NCBI RefSeq assembly: GCF_000764025.1
Contig: NZ_KN234757.1
Coordinates: 1 to 64,000, forward strand
Source of the DNA: Pseudohaliea rubra DSM 19751
GTDB lineage: Bacteria; Pseudomonadota; Gammaproteobacteria; Pseudomonadales; Halieaceae
Direction of reading: 5' to 3'
Length of the DNA stretch: 64,000 nucleotides
Made by a program: the position numbers and the translations under genes. This document shows positions 27,883 through 61,637 of this stretch, one piece after another. Numbering within the stretch: position 1 is the stretch's first letter; each line of letters starts with the position of its first letter. Below the pieces are notes generated by a model that did no database searches, was not told the origin of the DNA, and worked only from the letters and a program-made list of their open reading frames with translations.

Positions 27883-27917
27883 GGACGAGGTACCTTGTGC
27901 GATAAGCCGCGAGCGTC

Positions 27918-28631
27918 CTAAATGTCGATGGTTGTGTCTTTGAAAAAAACCGTGTTGACTTGTTTGGCGTAGAGCACGTAACTCTTGCTCTTCATAAATG
28001 CCGTAATCGGATGTGCATCAAGTTCATGAAGGCTGCTTTTTAGAACCTCCGCCAACACGACCTTTGGGCGATATTTCGTCCAGTCGTTGGATTTGAGCAC
28101 CTCAAGATCCAGACCTTCGACATCGATACTCATGAAGTCGATGTTTTTTCCGCCTAGGTGATGATTCAAAATTTCACTAAGCGGTGAAACCGCCACCTTG
28201 ATCACTTCCTTTACAAAATAAGGATTGCTTGCCTTCTCTCGCTCGTCAGCGAGGTCCGCGGAAAAGCCGTTGAGGGCTGGTTCGTTGAACGCATAATAGT
28301 CAAGCTCACCCGATGATTGCGCGACCCCCATTTCAATGTTGATATCTCGCGGGCGTGTTTTTTTGAAACTCGACATGCTACCAGGCATTGCATCGATATT
28401 GATTCCCGACCAGCCTCGCCGATAGAAGTGGTAGGTATTAGAGAAACGTTTTGGATGATGTGCTCCGACATCGACATAAAAACCGTCTTTTTGTCTTTCA
28501 AAGATTCTACGCAGAACCATATCCTCGCCTTCTTGCGACCAAGAGCGCTGAGCCCATTGATCCCAAGGTAAACAATCTAGCGCTCTTCTGAGCAAAGTCT
28601 TAACTGAGCGAGGGATATGGTTCTTGATCAT
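27918..28631 (-). CDS. FkbM-family methyltransferase
   Basis: The 237-residue protein has the FkbM/Methyltransf_21 layout: SQEGEDMVLRRIFERQKDGF, YVDVGAHHPKRFSNTYHFYR (motif I), GWSGINIDAMPGSMSSFKKT, a middle region with SSGELDYYAFNEPALNGFSA, and IDFMSIDVEGLDLEVLKSND (D-V-E-G motif). FkbM enzymes O-methylate sugars or polyketides. It lies 2 bp from the upstream methyltransferase stop. Start ATG at 28631. Confidence 0.88.
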   Translation of the reverse strand: MIKNHIPRSVKTLLRRALDCLPWDQWAQRSWSQEGEDMVLRRIFERQKDGFYVDVGAHHPKRFSNTYHFYRRGWSGINIDAMPGSMSSFKKTRPRDINIEMGVAQSSGELDYYAFNEPALNGFSADLADEREKASNPYFVKEVIKVAVSPLSEILNHHLGGKNIDFMSIDVEGLDLEVLKSNDWTKYRPKVVLAEVLKSSLHELDAHPITAFMKSKSYVLYAKQVNTVFFKDTTIDI

Positions 28632-28633
28632 TA

Positions 28634-29341
28634 TCAGTAGTCGCCATCTGCAACCTGAGCCAGTCCGCATTGTGACTTCAATGGCTGTTTATACGTCAAT
28701 TCTTTATGTCGTTCTGGATTGATAAAGACAGACGTTGTCCAAGTGTAATTGTTAATCGGGCCAAAACCATGGAAGTCGATTTGTGTCCATCCAAGATTTT
28801 GTTGAATAAAGTCTACTGTTTTTGGGTACCAGTCTGAATTATCAAGAATAAGCATTACCCCCCCCCTGCCACAATTTGCAACATGCTCGGCACATTCTCT
28901 TCTGTGCTTTCCGTCTATAATGAAAATATCAAAATCCTTGGTCGCTATTTTAGTGTACTTTTCCTTTTCTAATTCACAAATGTATGCAACATTCTTGAAA
29001 CTATTAGCGATTTTCGTTTTAATTTTCTTATACCAGTCGCCGTCATCTTCAACGGAGTTGACTTGCTTGGCTCGAGCGGCCCACCATAAAGTTGAATTAC
29101 CGCTGCCATACTCAAAGACATTGAATTGGGCTAATTCAAGATGCGATAAGAACTCCGTTGTTGGATAAGTGTACCAAGGAGTCGGTTTTTTATCTTTATC
29201 GACTGAATCCCAATCTCTTATCGTGACCCATTGCCCATAATCTTTAGCTAGAGAAATGAAATTTCTTGCTTGCTTTTTGCCTCTTTGAAACTGTTCTAGC
29301 ACTATTTTAGGTAACAATATACGCACAATTTTTTTAATCAT
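28634..29341 (-). CDS. Rossmann-fold methyltransferase-like protein with an in-frame 9-nt G tract
   Basis: 235 residues. FEYGSGNSTLWWAARAKQVN resembles SAM-binding motif I, followed by SVEDDGDWYKKIKTKI and FDIFIIDGKHRRECAEHV, then GGVMLILDNSDWYPKTVDFI. This fits a class I methyltransferase of the type found in polysaccharide clusters. The gene is clearly AT-richer than its neighbours (many K, N, I and Y codons), suggesting separate acquisition. A run of nine G (28858-28866 on the plus strand as C) lies in frame at GRGGV. It overlaps the flippase gene by 4 bp. Confidence 0.72.
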   Translation of the reverse strand: MIKKIVRILLPKIVLEQFQRGKKQARNFISLAKDYGQWVTIRDWDSVDKDKKPTPWYTYPTTEFLSHLELAQFNVFEYGSGNSTLWWAARAKQVNSVEDDGDWYKKIKTKIANSFKNVAYICELEKEKYTKIATKDFDIFIIDGKHRRECAEHVANCGRGGVMLILDNSDWYPKTVDFIQQNLGWTQIDFHGFGPINNYTWTTSVFINPERHKELTYKQPLKSQCGLAQVADGDY

Positions 29342-30669
29342 CTATTTCTTTCCAGTACCGCGATAATATTTAGGGCGCTTAGCTTCATCAGAAACATTTT
29401 TCTTGTCACACTTTGGAAAAGGTCTGCAAAAAGTGCAGCAACTGTATAAGAAATCACAGTAGCGATTGCAGCTCCGACTGGTCCGTAAAGAGGGATCAGC
29501 CAGAGATTTAAGCCGACATTTGTGATTGCGCCAAGCACTGTCCTCTGCAAACGCAGCATCTGCCGATTCTCAGTGAGGAACCATTTACTACTGGCGACAC
29601 CCAGAAAGACAAACACCGAGGCCCAGATGTGGATCGCCAGTACGGGGCCTGATTCACTATAGGACTCCCCGAATAGGAGCGTGACGATCGGGGTCGCGAG
29701 AAACGTCATCGGCACGGCAACGGAGACGCTGATGATGACCATCAAGTCATAGAGTCTCTGCAAGCGAGCGTAGTACTGCGTTTCGCTGCGCTTCTTGGCT
29801 TCCAGGATGGCGGGAAACACGGAGGCGACGATGGCCATCGGGATGAAGTACCAGACCTCGCTGATCCTGACCGCGGCGCTGTAGATGCCCACCGCCTCAT
29901 CGCCGATCATCTGGCCGAGCATGAGTTGGTCGATCTTCATGTACACCGTCACCGCGATCGCTGAGAGGATCAGCGGCCAACTGTCGCGCAGCAGGGTAAC
30001 GCCGCGCTCGACGCTAACGCGCAAGCTGCGCAGCGGCGGTCCGCGCCATCCCATGACGATGAGCAGGATCAGCGCTACCACAACCGCTTCGGCGAGCATC
30101 GCCCAGATGAAGGCGATCAGCGATGCCTGTTCCAGGATGAGGCCGACCTTGATCCCGGCGAAGACCAAGAAAACGCTGTTCTGCACCCAGACGGTGTATT
30201 TTGACTGCACCTGTGACTCGAACCAGTACACGGCGATCTCGCAGGCTTTCAACAGCATCATCGCGCCGAGGATGGCGACGATGCTGCGCGCCAGAGCGTC
30301 GGCCGGGCGAAGGTAAGCGATTGCGCCGAGGATCAGCAGGTAAGACAGCAGTCCGCCGATGAGCTGCAGTGCGGCCGCGGTGCCAAGGGTGAGGCGGGCG
30401 GACTCGGGATCGCGCACGATGTCGCGCACCACGATGCCTGGCAGGCCGAGCGTAGCGATGGCGCCAAAGAGGCCGGTGAAAGCGAGGGCGAAGTTCAACA
30501 GGCCAAACTGTTCCGGACCGAGATAACGGGCCACCCAAACGCCAATGAACAGCCCAACGCCCATGCGCAGGAGCTTGTCGATGAACAGCCAACCGATGTT
30601 ATCGGCGATCTTGACCAGACCAGGCCGATGCGCGATGCGGCGGTGCAGGAAGGCGGGGAGCAGAGACAT
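29338..30669 (-). CDS. wzx: Polysaccharide flippase (Wzx/MATE-like)
   Basis: The 443-residue protein has about 12-14 hydrophobic segments and the Polysacc_synt domain start: KIADNIGWLFIDKLLRMGVG and LFIGVWVARYLGPEQFGLLN. Other typical parts are FALAFTGLFGAIATLGLPGI, the MKIDQLMLGQMIGDEAVGIY block and IPLYGPVGAAIATVISYTVA. It would flip undecaprenyl-linked repeat units across the inner membrane. It is the first gene of the long minus-strand polysaccharide operon, so the operon promoter should lie at 30670-30830. Confidence 0.9.
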   Translation of the reverse strand: MSLLPAFLHRRIAHRPGLVKIADNIGWLFIDKLLRMGVGLFIGVWVARYLGPEQFGLLNFALAFTGLFGAIATLGLPGIVVRDIVRDPESARLTLGTAAALQLIGGLLSYLLILGAIAYLRPADALARSIVAILGAMMLLKACEIAVYWFESQVQSKYTVWVQNSVFLVFAGIKVGLILEQASLIAFIWAMLAEAVVVALILLIVMGWRGPPLRSLRVSVERGVTLLRDSWPLILSAIAVTVYMKIDQLMLGQMIGDEAVGIYSAAVRISEVWYFIPMAIVASVFPAILEAKKRSETQYYARLQRLYDLMVIISVSVAVPMTFLATPIVTLLFGESYSESGPVLAIHIWASVFVFLGVASSKWFLTENRQMLRLQRTVLGAITNVGLNLWLIPLYGPVGAAIATVISYTVAALFADLFQSVTRKMFLMKLSALNIIAVLERNR

Positions 30670-30830
30670 TACACGGTGGTTCTAGTCGGTTACGGCGAGC
30701 CGGTGACGGCTTCGGACCTCAGATTCAAGTTTCATCCAGCCCGAGTCAAATGAATACTGTAGTCGCTGGGCGGCGCAGACAGTCTTCAATCCCGGTCCTG
30801 GGCTGCGCCGTCACAAGCCCACCCGAGCAC

Positions 30831-53912: not shown

Positions 53913-54043
53913 CCCCCCGGCGAAGCCGGGCGACGATTTGTCTTAAAAACGCGACCTCGCGGAGACGCGTCGAGATGCACGGTGCATCAAGCCTGCGCCG
54001 CGCAGTTAAATACAGGCGTATACGATGCAATAAGGAGCGCGCA

Positions 54044-54871
54044 ATGGAATCAGTTTGCGGCACTTCGACTGAAGCCTGCCTGAAGTTCCTGGCCGACCTG
54101 TCACAACCATTAGTTTACGTCCCGTCAAAAGGCGGTGGCGATCAAACAGAACACCAGGGGAATTTCCGCACGCACGCGGTCACGGTTCGCGATGCCCGAC
54201 AGGTGCTGCCTGCCACAGACCTCGACAGGGAAGGGTTCACGCTTCTTCAGCACCGCAGCGCCGTGGACAACTTTTACGACGATGAAGCTCTGAGCAACAC
54301 CTATCATGGCGAGCTGATCGATCTGCTCACGACCCGTACCGGCGCGCGCCGGGTCGAGGTGTTCGACGACACACGCCGGAGCGCCTCCCTCGCCCGGCAG
54401 CGGGAACGGGGCATCCGTGAGCCGGCGAACATCGTGCACAATGACTACACGGCGGCGTCCGGCCCGCGCCGTCTCGACGATTTCTTCGCTGACACGCCGG
54501 AAGAAGCTGCGGTGCTCCGCCAGCGACGCTTCGCCATCATCAATGCCTGGCGCCCGATCCGGGGACCGGTGCTCGACCAGCCGCTGGTGCTCTGCGATGC
54601 AAGCACCGTGGAGGAAGGCGACCTCGTCGCCATGGAGCGGCGGGGCGAGGTACGCACCGGCAAGCTGCAGGTGGCATGCCACAACCCAGCGCAGCGCTGG
54701 TACTACTATCCCCGCATGCAGCCCGACGAGGTGCTGCTGTTCAAGACCTACGACTCGGCAGAGGATGGACGGGCACGTTTTACCCTCCATTCGTCCTTTG
54801 CAGATCCCGCAGCACCCGCGGCTGCACCACCGCGGGAAAGCCTCGAGACCCGCTGCCTGGTGTTCTTCTGA
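54044..54871 (+). CDS. CmcJ/NvfI (AsaB)-type oxidoreductase
   Basis: The 275-residue protein matches the CmcJ/NvfI family of putative non-haem iron, 2OG-type oxygenases. Marks: VHNDYTAASGPRRLDDFF (HxD), RFAIINAWRPIRGPVLDQPL, LVLCDASTVEEGDLVAMERR, HNPAQRWYYYPRMQPDEVLL and FKTYDSAEDGRARFTLHSSF (distal His). The ATG at 54044 follows AAGGAG at good spacing. Members are best known from fungal and bacterial natural-product pathways; the substrate here is unknown. No biosynthetic core enzyme lies nearby. Confidence 0.85.
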   Translation: MESVCGTSTEACLKFLADLSQPLVYVPSKGGGDQTEHQGNFRTHAVTVRDARQVLPATDLDREGFTLLQHRSAVDNFYDDEALSNTYHGELIDLLTTRTGARRVEVFDDTRRSASLARQRERGIREPANIVHNDYTAASGPRRLDDFFADTPEEAAVLRQRRFAIINAWRPIRGPVLDQPLVLCDASTVEEGDLVAMERRGEVRTGKLQVACHNPAQRWYYYPRMQPDEVLLFKTYDSAEDGRARFTLHSSFADPAAPAAAPPRESLETRCLVFF

Positions 54872-58221: not shown

Positions 58222-59151
58222 ATGAGCAGCGAACAGACGCCGGCGCAGGCAACGGCGCCAAAGCCCAAGGTTTTTATTCACGTTAATCACAAGCAGATCC
58301 TCGGCGCTATTGTCGGAAAGTACTCGCTGGAGAAGCACTCGGCACACGCCGACCGGTTTGCCGTGGAGTTCATCGAAGTGCGCAACCAGCCCTTCCTGCA
58401 CGCCAAGGAGGGTGAGCTGTATCTGCGCCACGGTGACAAGCGCAGCTGGCTGAACGATGACCTGCAGTCTTTCACGCCGCTGCGCTTCATGCCGCCGGAG
58501 CTCATGGGCTACCAGGGGCGTGCGGTGGTGATCGACCCGGACGTGTTTGCCGTGGGCGACGTGTGGGAGCTGCTCTCCCGGGACATGGACGGCATGGCGC
58601 TTATGTGCCGGCCGAAGTCGGGCAACAAGGGCAAGCACGGCGCGCTGGCTTCCAGCGTGATGCTGCTGGACTGTGCGCAGCTCACGCACTGGCGGGTGGA
58701 GGAGCAGTTCAACGAGATGTTCGCCTTCAAGCACGACTACATGGACTGGATCAGCCTCAAGCTCGAGGATCGCAGCCGCATCGGCCTGTTCGAGGACGAG
58801 TGGAACGATTTTGACCGCCTGACGCCGCGAACGAAGCTGCTGCACACGACCAAGCGCCGGCACCAGCCCTGGAAGACGGGCCTGCCCATCGACTTCCGCC
58901 CGGCGGACAAGTTCCGCCTGTTCCCGCCCAAGCACTGGCTGCGCCGCGCGCGCCGGGCAGTGTTCGGGGACTATGCGCTGGCCGGCACCTACAAGCGCCA
59001 CCCGGACCCGGCCCAGGAAGCGTTCTTCTTCCGCCTCGTCAGCGAATGCCTGGACGAGGGGATCATCAGCGAGCAGGACGTCCGCCACGAGATGGCCCAC
59101 AACCACGTGCGCCACGATGCGCTGGAGCTGGTGCGGCAGCAGGCCGCCTGA
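58222..59151 (+). CDS. Glycosyltransferase-like (GT-A/GT8-like) protein, paralogue 1
   Basis: 309 residues, no signal peptide or membrane helix. KVFIHVNHKQILGAIVGKYS at the N terminus, DLQSFTPLRFMPPELMGYQG, then GRAVVIDPDVFAVGDVWELL, where DPD sits after a beta strand like the DxD of GT8 enzymes, and ASSVMLLDCAQLTHWRVEEQ. The C-terminal part has QPWKTGLPIDFRPADKF. The gene at 59879-60880 encodes a paralogue with the same blocks. I read it as a soluble glycosyltransferase; the family is not certain and no substrate can be named. Confidence 0.7.
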   Translation: MSSEQTPAQATAPKPKVFIHVNHKQILGAIVGKYSLEKHSAHADRFAVEFIEVRNQPFLHAKEGELYLRHGDKRSWLNDDLQSFTPLRFMPPELMGYQGRAVVIDPDVFAVGDVWELLSRDMDGMALMCRPKSGNKGKHGALASSVMLLDCAQLTHWRVEEQFNEMFAFKHDYMDWISLKLEDRSRIGLFEDEWNDFDRLTPRTKLLHTTKRRHQPWKTGLPIDFRPADKFRLFPPKHWLRRARRAVFGDYALAGTYKRHPDPAQEAFFFRLVSECLDEGIISEQDVRHEMAHNHVRHDALELVRQQAA

Positions 59152-59198
59152 GCCGCTCTTCCACAACGAGCCCCATGCACGCCAAGAGAGGATACACC

Positions 59199-59828
59199 GT
59201 GACCCTGATCGACCTGTCGGCCCTCGAGGCCTGCGAGCTGCACAACGACCCCTTCGACTACATCGTGGTGCCGGATTTCCTGCCGCCGGAGGCCCTGGCC
59301 CGCGTGAACGCGGACTACCCGGCCATCGACACGGCCACCAATCACGATCTCGCCGACCTGCGCTACGGCGCGCAGTTCTCGACGTTTCTCGGTGAGCTTC
59401 AGACCAGCGCCTTCCGCCAGGCCCTGGGCGACAAGTTCGGCGTGGACCTGACGCACTGCCCCACTACGATCACCGTGCGCAAGTACTGCGAGCAGAGCGA
59501 CGGCAACATCCACACGGACCACTGGAGCAAGGTGATCACCGTGCTGGTCTATTTCAATGAAAGCTGGGAGCACGAGGGCGGTCGCCTGCGCATGCTGCGG
59601 TCGGAGCACGACCTCGAGGACTACACGGCCGAGGTGAAGCCCCTGGGCGGCCAGCTGCTGGCCTTCCGCCGCACGGATCACTCCTGGCACGGCCACAAAC
59701 CCTTCGTCGGTGAGCGGCGCATGCTGCAGTACAACTTTCTGTCCTCGAGCAAGCTTGCCCGGGTCAGCCAGAAGGTGAACCGCTTCGGCACCCACTTCGG
59801 CAAGCGCGTGCTCGGGATCGGCCAGTGA
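59199..59828 (+). CDS. 2OG-Fe(II) oxygenase (prolyl-hydroxylase-like)
   Basis: 209 residues from a GTG at 59199, chosen because AGAGAGGA lies at the right distance. The double-stranded beta-helix core shows GNIHTDHWSKVITVLVYFN with H105 and D107 of the HxD motif, GGRLRMLRSEHDLEDYTAEV, and DHSWHGHKPFVGERRMLQYN with the distal His164 and the 2OG-binding Arg173. It should hydroxylate a protein, sugar or lipid. It lies between the two glycosyltransferase-like paralogues, with short gaps, so all belong to one transcription unit. Confidence 0.85.
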   Translation: MTLIDLSALEACELHNDPFDYIVVPDFLPPEALARVNADYPAIDTATNHDLADLRYGAQFSTFLGELQTSAFRQALGDKFGVDLTHCPTTITVRKYCEQSDGNIHTDHWSKVITVLVYFNESWEHEGGRLRMLRSEHDLEDYTAEVKPLGGQLLAFRRTDHSWHGHKPFVGERRMLQYNFLSSSKLARVSQKVNRFGTHFGKRVLGIGQ

Positions 59829-59878
59829 GCCACGGCGCTCAGACAGAGCACAGAACCCCGGTGCCAGGAGAGACAGCA

Positions 59879-60880
59879 ATGACAGAAACGGCGATGAATG
59901 AGACAGCCATAAGCGCGACGACGAGCACCTCAGCCACAGAGGCCGAGCCGAAGCCCTGCGTCTTCATCCACGTGAACCACAAGCAGATCCTCGGCGCGCA
60001 CGTGGGCGCGAAGTCCCTGCGCTATTTTTCTAAGCACAATGACAAGTTCGACGTGCGCTTTATCGAGACCCGGGACCACCCCTTCCTGCGCGCCCGGGAA
60101 GACCAGCCGTTCCTGCGTAACGGCGTCTGGCGCAAGTGGCGCATCAACGATCTGCAGTCGTTCACGCCGCTGCGCTTCATGCCGCCGGAGCTTATGGGCT
60201 ACCGCGGCCGCGCCGTCGTGATCGACCCGGACGTCTTTGCCGTGGGTGATGTCTGGGATCTGCTCTCCCGCGATATGGGGGGCAAGGCCATCCTCTGCCG
60301 GCCGCGCAACAAGAAAAACCCGGACATCAACGGCCCCCTCGCCTCGAGCGTGATGCTCCTGGACTGCGCGAAACTGACCCACTGGCGGGCCGAGGAACAG
60401 TTCAGCGAGTTGTTCACCGGCGAGCGCGACTACAAGCAGTGGATCACGTTGATGTACGAAGACCGCGCCACCATCGGCCTGCTCGAGAACAGCTGGAATG
60501 ATCTGGACGTGCTCAACCGGGAAACGCGCCTGCTGCACACCACCCGGCGCTGGACCCAGCCCTGGAAGGCCGGCCTGCCCATCGACTTCGTGCCGGCAGA
60601 CAAGTTCGACGCCTTCCCGCCCCTGGGCTGGCTCATGTACCTGCGGCGCAAGCTGTTCGGCGATTACGCCTTTCTGGGCCACTATCGCGCCCATCCGGAC
60701 AAGAACCAGGAGGATCTGTTCTTCGCGCTGCTGCGCGAGTGTGTGGACGACGGCACCGTGACCGAGGACATGATCCGGCGGGAGATGGACGCCAACCACG
60801 TGCGCAAGGATGCGCCGCTGGTGCTGCGCAAGGCGCCGAGGCTCGAGCAGGTGATCGCCTCGCTCCCGGCTGCGGCCTGA
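59879..60880 (+). CDS. Glycosyltransferase-like (GT-A/GT8-like) protein, paralogue 2
   Basis: 333 residues; ATG at 59879 preceded by AGGAGAG. It shares with the gene at 58222-59151 the blocks CVFIHVNHKQILGAHVGAKS, INDLQSFTPLRFMPPELMGY, RAVVIDPDVFAVGDVWDLLS, LASSVMLLDCAKLTHWRAEE, QPWKAGLPIDFVPADKF, FGDYAFLGHYRAHPDKNQED and NHVRKDAP. A Thr/Ala-rich N-terminal extension of about 30 residues differs. Divergence suggests the two act on different substrates or as a pair. Confidence 0.7.
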   Translation: MTETAMNETAISATTSTSATEAEPKPCVFIHVNHKQILGAHVGAKSLRYFSKHNDKFDVRFIETRDHPFLRAREDQPFLRNGVWRKWRINDLQSFTPLRFMPPELMGYRGRAVVIDPDVFAVGDVWDLLSRDMGGKAILCRPRNKKNPDINGPLASSVMLLDCAKLTHWRAEEQFSELFTGERDYKQWITLMYEDRATIGLLENSWNDLDVLNRETRLLHTTRRWTQPWKAGLPIDFVPADKFDAFPPLGWLMYLRRKLFGDYAFLGHYRAHPDKNQEDLFFALLRECVDDGTVTEDMIRREMDANHVRKDAPLVLRKAPRLEQVIASLPAAA

Positions 60881-60899
60881 GCGGCCGGGCGCCGGGAGC

Positions 60900-61637
60900 A
60901 TGGGCCTGTTCCGCACTACCGCCGCCTACGACGAGGCGCTGGCTAACTGGCAGGGCATCGCCGACCGGCCGGCGCCGGCGAACCTCGCGCGCAGGGACGG
61001 CATCCGGGTGCTCGAGAACGACCTCCTCGAGCGCTGGCTCACCAGCGCGCACTGGACGCTCCCGGGCCTCTGGGCGCTGCCGCTGACGGCCTTCTGCCTG
61101 CACCGCGCGCTGGTAGTGGAAGAGCGCACAGCGGCTGCCGTGGCCGGACTCTTCCTGGCCGGCATGCTGGGCTGGACCTTTGCCGAGTACTGGCTGCACC
61201 GCTGGCTGTTCCACCTGCCGCCGGCGAAGAACCGCACGCTGCGGGCGATCCAGTTCGGACTCCACGGCTACCACCACGAGTTCCCGGAGGACCCGCGCCG
61301 GCTGGTGGCCCCGCCCATCCTCGCCGTGCCCATCGCCTCCGCGCTGGCCGCCCTGGTCGTCCTGCTCTTCCCCGGGCACTGGCCACCGCTGCTGGCCGGC
61401 ACCTTCTTCGGCTACCTCTGCTACGACTGGGTGCACTACTTCACGCACCACGGCCGGCCGCGCACGGCGGCGGGTCGCTTCCTGCGGCGCTTTCACAAGA
61501 CCCACCATTACCGCTGCGCCTGCACCCGCTACGGCCTGAGTTCACCGCTCTGGGACCTCGTTTTCGGCACCGCCGGGGAGCGGCCGCCCGGCGCTGCCGG
61601 TGAAACGACCGAAAAGCCTACCGCCGGCCAGCGCTGA
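60900..61637 (+). CDS. Fatty-acid hydroxylase-superfamily membrane enzyme
   Basis: 245 residues with about four transmembrane segments and the eight-His di-iron pattern of the fatty acid hydroxylase/sterol desaturase superfamily: HRWLFHLP, FGLHGYHHEFPEDP, WVHYFTHHGRP and FHKTHHYRCACTRYG. The LHGYHHEFPEDPRRLV stretch is closest to fatty acid 2-hydroxylases (FA2H/Scs7-like) that act on sphingolipids or similar lipids. It begins 19 bp after paralogue 2. It implies a hydroxylated lipid as product or anchor of this cluster. Confidence 0.88.
   Translation: MGLFRTTAAYDEALANWQGIADRPAPANLARRDGIRVLENDLLERWLTSAHWTLPGLWALPLTAFCLHRALVVEERTAAAVAGLFLAGMLGWTFAEYWLHRWLFHLPPAKNRTLRAIQFGLHGYHHEFPEDPRRLVAPPILAVPIASALAALVVLLFPGHWPPLLAGTFFGYLCYDWVHYFTHHGRPRTAAGRFLRRFHKTHHYRCACTRYGLSSPLWDLVFGTAGERPPGAAGETTEKPTAGQR

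Follow-up and report, generated by a model that had tools for sequence, protein, structure and literature searches.

A putative regulated operon for the decoration of a ceramide-based outer-membrane lipid in Pseudohaliea rubra

We analyzed a stretch of 64,000 nucleotides from the genome of Pseudohaliea rubra DSM 19751 (contig NZ_KN234757.1, positions 1 to 64,000; hereafter the window), in which four genes, encoding two paralogous glycosyltransferase-like proteins (GTa and GTb; the family is abbreviated GT), a soluble Fe(II)/2-oxoglutarate (2OG) oxygenase and a membrane fatty acid hydroxylase (FAH), follow the gene of a Cys-rich LuxR-type regulator. We propose, with a probability of about 0.74, that they constitute a regulated satellite operon, whose products would hydroxylate and glycosylate a ceramide-based outer-membrane lipid that stands in for lipopolysaccharide (LPS). 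The predicted link of the operon to sphingolipids is well supported by comparison of gene content, and we further infer the likely substrates, sugars, order of reactions and target of the 2OG oxygenase. An earlier note on this DNA had suggested a pathway either to a hydroxylated glycolipid or to a hydroxylated, glycosylated protein; as it was based on the window alone, a second gene cluster and the lack of lipid A genes, both described below, were not visible to its author. The glycolipid direction is retained here, with the class narrowed to sphingolipids, since in the genomes sampled the GT family is confined to those with serine palmitoyltransferase (SPT). The protein option found no support.

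Association with sphingolipid synthesis genes and apparent absence of LpxC and LpxB

The genome (3.2 Mb in 86 contigs, 98.8% complete, 0.09% contaminated) carries on another contig, C7, at about 70-102 kb, a ceramide cluster of ~30 kb. It contains two copies of the GT (67% and 61% identical to GTa), a relative of the window's 2OG oxygenase (60% identity) and a FA_hydroxylase, along with lipid genes (LpxL-like acyltransferases, NAD epimerase, fatty acyl-AMP ligase, SPT and acyl carrier protein (ACP)), export genes (MsbA, LptG and LptF), three sulfotransferases, three ELM1 proteins, an O-antigen-ligase-like protein, a MobA-like nucleotidyltransferase, a metallophosphoesterase, a Tam41-like protein and a DAGK-type lipid kinase. 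The identification of SPT by sequence is firm (NCBIfam: NF047599, 588 bits, cut-off 500; PDB: SPT, 8e-116, next enzyme, 4e-65), and Pfam and NCBIfam identify the ACP, the acyl-AMP ligase and an NAD-dependent reductase near spt. A 410-aa protein, which has no Pfam or NCBIfam match, lies where the ceramide synthase CerS would be expected and is, judging by this position, the likely candidate for it.

The families of the operon do co-occur in other genomes, a check that the earlier note had proposed. Full-length GTs were found in 9 of the 244 genomes of an order-level sample and SPT in 11, with all nine GT-positive genomes being also SPT-positive (hypergeometric test, 8e-15, relatedness ignored); in a phylum-level sample of 398 genomes the corresponding numbers were 3 and 36, again with SPT in 3/3 of the GT-positive genomes. 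The genome of P. rubra is present in both samples, so that 11 different GT-positive genomes were available. FA_hydroxylase was detected (E<1e-20) in 7 genomes, every one of which has both the GT and SPT, and the 2OG family in 24, its 60%-identical form being confined to genomes with the GT and SPT.

A scan of species genomes for the GT revealed 132 encoding stretches, and the retained loci are 58-93% identical to GTa. Culturable marine strains that bear the GT include Roseovarius mucosus DSM 17069 and Oceanibacterium hippocampi CECT 7691. Among 79 fetched GT loci, ELM1 is present in 42, a sulfotransferase in 32, and LptF, LptG or MsbA in 13-15; one or more markers of lipid export, ELM1, sulfotransferase or ceramide occur in 48 of the 79, and in 22 there is a marker of ceramide or phosphosphingolipid in the strict sense. 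On plasmids of Roseomonas mucosa and Diaphorobacter the GT is annotated as hypothetical and lies near SPT, ACP, acyl-AMP ligase and ELM1. The former is a skin bacterium, whose plasmids carry the GT relative in a sphingolipid-type cluster, while the latter relative, from Diaphorobacter sp. JS3051, is encoded on the conjugative IncP plasmid pDCB2, adjoining a Tn3 transposase, in a compact cluster with SPT, ACP, acyl-AMP ligase, ELM1, a cytochrome P450 and a non-ribosomal peptide synthetase (Table 1).

Family searches revealed neither LpxC nor LpxB in the genome of P. rubra, and both are missing from 10/11 GT-positive genomes, this one included, whereas both are present in 10/11 comparison genomes, including all seven members of the family that have neither the GT nor SPT (Fisher's test, 3e-4, relatedness ignored); these absences come from family searches for two markers in mostly draft genomes. 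The sole exception among the comparison genomes, G334, has SPT but neither the GT nor LpxC/LpxB. Since LpxC and LpxB were not found and the only LptF/LptG pair of the P. rubra genome sits inside the ceramide cluster, the gene content points to a sphingolipid-based lipid in place of LPS, and the outer membrane of this bacterium may be built on sphingolipids rather than LPS.

The glycosyltransferase paralogues and the two oxygenases

GTa and GTb exhibit 61% identity over 306 residues (E-value 2e-138), and all the sequence blocks listed as shared in the earlier note are indeed present. Its author could not assign them to a named family, and the two proteins do score below every family cut-off (Pfam Glyco_transf_8: GTa, 13 bits, cut-off 24.3, E-value 0.077; GTb, no match; NCBIfam and PHROGs: no match for the GT; sequence searches of solved structures with a single sequence and a 49-row profile: no useful match), but they can be placed by structure. 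The AlphaFold model of GTa (predicted local distance difference test score 89, predicted template modelling score 0.86) exhibits the GT-A fold of glycosyltransferases rather than an unrelated one, with LgtC as the closest structure (Z-score 17.8, root-mean-square deviation 3.1-3.2, 213-220 residues aligned), followed by a GT8 protein, glycogenin (Z-score about 16) and GlyE; Skp1 galactosyltransferase is also among the matches. Invariant across the alignment of 49 GT sequences are D105-P-D107 (the DxD metal site), W194-N-D-x-D198, and H208 followed by QPWKxG. GTa thus has in common with LgtC and other GT8 enzymes the GT-A fold, the DxD motif and a C-terminal His/KPW-like motif, but differs from them in its low identity over the aligned core (10-12%) and in its score below the Pfam GT8 cut-off. 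We regard both paralogues, on the basis of predicted fold and motifs, as GT8-like, and because of the failed cut-off do not file them as GT8.

In a tree of 130 sequences GTa groups with one of the C7 copies, while GTb falls into a different, well-supported clade with its own orthologues in loci L031, L084, L098 and L106. A recent tandem duplication as the origin of the pair is ruled out by these separate clades, each with its own orthologues. A 2OG gene lies at a distance of up to 6 kb in 14 of 19 fetched GTa-clade members, and an FAH gene adjoins the GT in four members of the GTb clade; these neighborhoods link GTa to the 2OG gene and GTb to FAH, and the operon looks as though it had brought two decoration steps together.

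In the 2OG oxygenase the iron triad (H106-x-D108, H165) and the 2OG-binding R175 (residues numbered from 59196) are invariant in 14 sequences. The fold of its model is closest to PasI and PolD, followed by prolyl hydroxylases, and PasI and PolD are also the best sequence matches among solved structures. These two enzymes come from nucleoside antibiotic pathways and are only about 20% identical to the 2OG oxygenase, which is found here among lipid and envelope genes. C7 also has a MurA-like gene next to spt, which might have hinted at chemistry of the PolD/PasI type, but we rejected this idea because the gene is more likely an ordinary murA. A second 2OG-oxygenase-like family was observed beside GTs of other clades in two loci (L110 and L113, Table 1), which suggests that 2OG enzymes have been recruited repeatedly to GT clusters.

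FAH matches yeast SCS7 in a phmmer search (E-value 2.6e-28, 188 residues) with the His boxes aligned (HxxxxH, HxxHH, HxxxHH and HxxHH). Scs7 is the hydroxylase of the very-long-chain fatty acid of ceramide. FAH has in common with yeast Scs7/FA2H the catalytic membrane domain and the His boxes, whereas the cytochrome b5 domain fused in yeast Scs7 has no Pfam match in the 245 residues of the bacterial protein. The FAH paralogue on C7 (42% identical) matches Scs7 as well.

Proposed function, alternatives and related systems

We propose that FAH would, like Scs7, act in the inner membrane and 2-hydroxylate the acyl chain that is amide-linked in ceramide, and that GTa and GTb would work at the cytoplasmic face, each adding a sugar from a nucleotide sugar to the head group of the lipid, much as LgtC acts on lipooligosaccharide (LOS). 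The 2OG oxygenase, tied to GTa-type enzymes, could hydroxylate the sugar or lipid handled by GTa; the product would be exported by the MsbA- and LptFG-like proteins to the outer membrane and there replace LPS, and the Cys-rich LuxR protein might switch on the extra decoration in response to a signal. Within this scheme, support is strongest for the assignment of FAH and for the route of export. By analogy with an ELM1-like gene required for the LOS core of A. baumannii (PMC10936431), the ELM1 proteins may act as additional glycosyltransferases of the core.

Several points weigh against the proposed role in outer-membrane sphingolipid decoration. The evidence is entirely gene-based; the operon contains no ceramide-synthesis gene and lies on a different contig than the C7 cluster; several GT loci have no recognised sphingolipid marker, in part since the contigs are short; the GT-positive genomes are related, so that the counts are not independent; the 2OG family extends beyond the SPT-bearing genomes; and one genome (G040) has the GT and SPT and yet retains LpxC and LpxB. 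Together with G334, this genome is informative about the sequence in which genes were gained and lost.

An alternative is that the operon makes a distinct secreted or capsular polysaccharide, or else a LuxR-controlled hydroxylated signalling lipid, with no relation to the outer-membrane sphingolipid. Its position apart from the ceramide cluster and behind its own regulator, the polysaccharide-type genes elsewhere in the window (a flippase-like protein and others) and the same-family 2OG oxygenases of SPT-lacking genomes agree with this explanation, which we nonetheless consider unlikely: paralogues of all three enzyme types occur in the ceramide cluster, GTa groups with a C7 copy, and in sphingolipid clusters, too, GTa-clade GTs have genes of this 2OG subfamily beside them. 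Somewhat less probable still is a modification of the ordinary lipid A-based LPS/LOS core, with the sphingolipid association reflecting mere co-location of envelope genes. The best structural match, LgtC, is a known LOS enzyme, and the LptF/G, MsbA, LpxL-like, ELM1 and O-antigen-ligase-like neighbors are typical of LPS, but a lipid A-based substrate is hard to reconcile with the lack of LpxC and LpxB in nearly all GT-positive genomes, with a GT whose presence tracks that of SPT, and with the resemblance of FAH to a ceramide enzyme. The protein option, in which a prolyl-hydroxylase-like 2OG enzyme and glycogenin- or Skp1-like glycosyltransferases would produce a hydroxylated, glycosylated protein, draws on the similarity of the 2OG model to prolyl hydroxylases and on glycogenin and Skp1 galactosyltransferase among the structural matches of GTa. 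It leaves the Scs7-like FAH, the co-occurrence with SPT and the Lpt, MsbA, LpxL and sulfotransferase neighbors unexplained, and PasI and PolD, which come nearest to the 2OG model in structure, are by their entry titles not protein hydroxylases (the PasI structure includes a sugar-nucleoside acid); we therefore deem it very improbable.

LPS is regarded as near-universal in the outer membranes of Gram-negative bacteria, the well-known sphingolipid-based exception being Sphingomonas and its relatives, whose envelope contains a glycosphingolipid in place of LPS. Sphingolipid genes and absent lipid A genes (here LpxC and LpxB) are common to the Sphingomonas-type envelope and the genome of P. rubra, but the lineages are different, and GT8-like enzymes are found here instead of the Sgt-type (as far as described), in addition to sulfotransferases, ELM1 and 2OG oxygenases. 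If sphingolipid-based replacement of LPS is true, lipid A has been abandoned in several more proteobacterial lineages, which have retained an Lpt-type exporter for a sphingolipid, and both the cargo of bacterial Lpt proteins in the absence of LPS and the enzymes that build complex bacterial glycosphingolipids become testable. The occurrence of GT relatives on the plasmids of R. mucosa and on the conjugative IncP plasmid suggests that bacteria can pass the pathway to one another and that it extends to bacteria of the human skin. We speculate, at slightly less than even odds, that an undescribed ceramide-anchored, multiply glycosylated, hydroxylated and probably sulfated LOS equivalent has supplanted lipid A in several lineages of proteobacteria, with the GT8-like family as its genomic signature and the operon as a switchable module that varies it.

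Parts of such a pathway are already known. In Caulobacter sphingolipids, glycosylation of ceramide, hydroxylation of the acyl chain and second copies of LptF/LptG have been described (PMC6445935, PMC11324152), as have the bacterial ceramide glycosyltransferases Sgt1/Sgt2 (PMC6445935) and the CPG pathway (PMC11324152). The ceramide/CPG2 cluster of Caulobacter crescentus (CC_1152-CC_1168; PMC11324152) resembles that on C7 in having SPT, ACP, acyl ligase, reductase and lipid kinase, and its cytidylyltransferase-like gene, dedicated LptF2/LptG2 and flippase match C7 in outline; a putative correspondence of single C7 genes to cpgA-D and cerS is drawn from this outline rather than from sequence. No GT8-like, ELM1 or 2OG gene was found described for the Caulobacter cluster, and neither a glycosyltransferase nor a sulfotransferase is mentioned in the text of the CPG2 paper (PMC11324152). 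Caulobacter, which served as a control in the LpxC search, has LpxC, unlike P. rubra, and its acyl hydroxylation is ascribed to a DesA-type enzyme, CC_0202 (PMC11324152), not to the FA_hydroxylase family. Sgt1 and Sgt2, two successive ceramide glycosyltransferases that are induced on phosphate starvation and have their genes at a distance from spt (PMC6445935), have the role proposed for GTa and GTb, the likeness being one of description. In the literature searched, which covered subscription papers in part, there was no description of the GT8-like family or of ELM1, sulfotransferase or 2OG partners in sphingolipid clusters.

Organization of the operon and its neighborhood

The earlier note's description of four closely spaced, same-strand genes downstream of a Cys-rich LuxR-type regulator agrees with the open reading frames (ORFs) and the composition; the intergenic distances, in the order regulator, GTa, 2OG oxygenase, GTb and FAH, are 155, 47, 50 and 19 bases. 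Start codons, refined from putative ribosome-binding sites and the N-termini of homologs, replace the mechanical ORF starts of the 2OG oxygenase (59046) and GTb (59825) by those given in Table 1. A scan for consensus promoters upstream of the operon revealed no forward promoter-like site. The order regulator-GT-2OG-GT-FAH is kept in locus L031 and, across split contigs, in two further assemblies (L029/L098 and L030/L084), while L106 has a shorter version, regulator-GTb-FAH; this conservation indicates that the cluster is not a chance arrangement. Cys-rich relatives of the regulator adjoin GT genes in L029, L030, L031, L106 and in Thiogranum-type loci.

Table 1. Genes of the operon and other features mentioned in the text (coordinates in the window unless another locus is named)
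Feature	Location	Strand	Basis
LuxR-type regulator, Cys-rich N-terminal part (7 Cys) and GerE helix-turn-helix	57551-58066	+	Pfam GerE, E-value 2e-12
GTa, putative GT8-like glycosyltransferase	58222-59151	+	invariant motifs, predicted fold, tree, neighbors
Soluble Fe(II)/2OG oxygenase (GTG start)	59199-59828	+	Pfam 2OG-FeII_Oxy_3, E-value 2.9e-10
GTb, putative GT8-like glycosyltransferase, adjoins FA_hydroxylase	59879-60880	+	61% identity to GTa; own orthologues
Membrane FA_hydroxylase, Scs7/FA2H-like, 245 aa	60900-61637	+	Pfam PF04116, E-value 1.1e-18
CmcJ/NvfI-family oxidoreductase	53975-54871		NCBIfam, E-value 1.4e-87
Low-GC stretch with flippase-like and FkbM-methyltransferase-like ORFs	27900-30700		46% GC, against about 62%
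Second 2OG-oxygenase-like family	L110, 16643-17353		
Second 2OG-oxygenase-like family	L113, 8484-9209 and 11293-12039		
GT relative, R. mucosa plasmids	L135, 12001-12951		
GT relative, plasmid pDCB2	L136, 9001-9846		

In nine loci from Thiogranum/Thiohalobacter-type genomes (L047, L055, L057, L067, L070, L071, L079, L086 and L103) cytochrome-oxidase assembly genes, which we read as CtaB, SCO1- and SURF1-like, lie directly upstream of the GT genes, in most cases with the Cys-rich regulator in between, hinting at a link to oxygen or redox state. Upstream of the operon the window encodes a CmcJ/NvfI-family oxidoreductase, after which come a RidA-family gene and a BCCT transporter. The low-GC stretch with flippase-like and FkbM-methyltransferase-like ORFs, elsewhere in the window, probably belongs to a polysaccharide locus.

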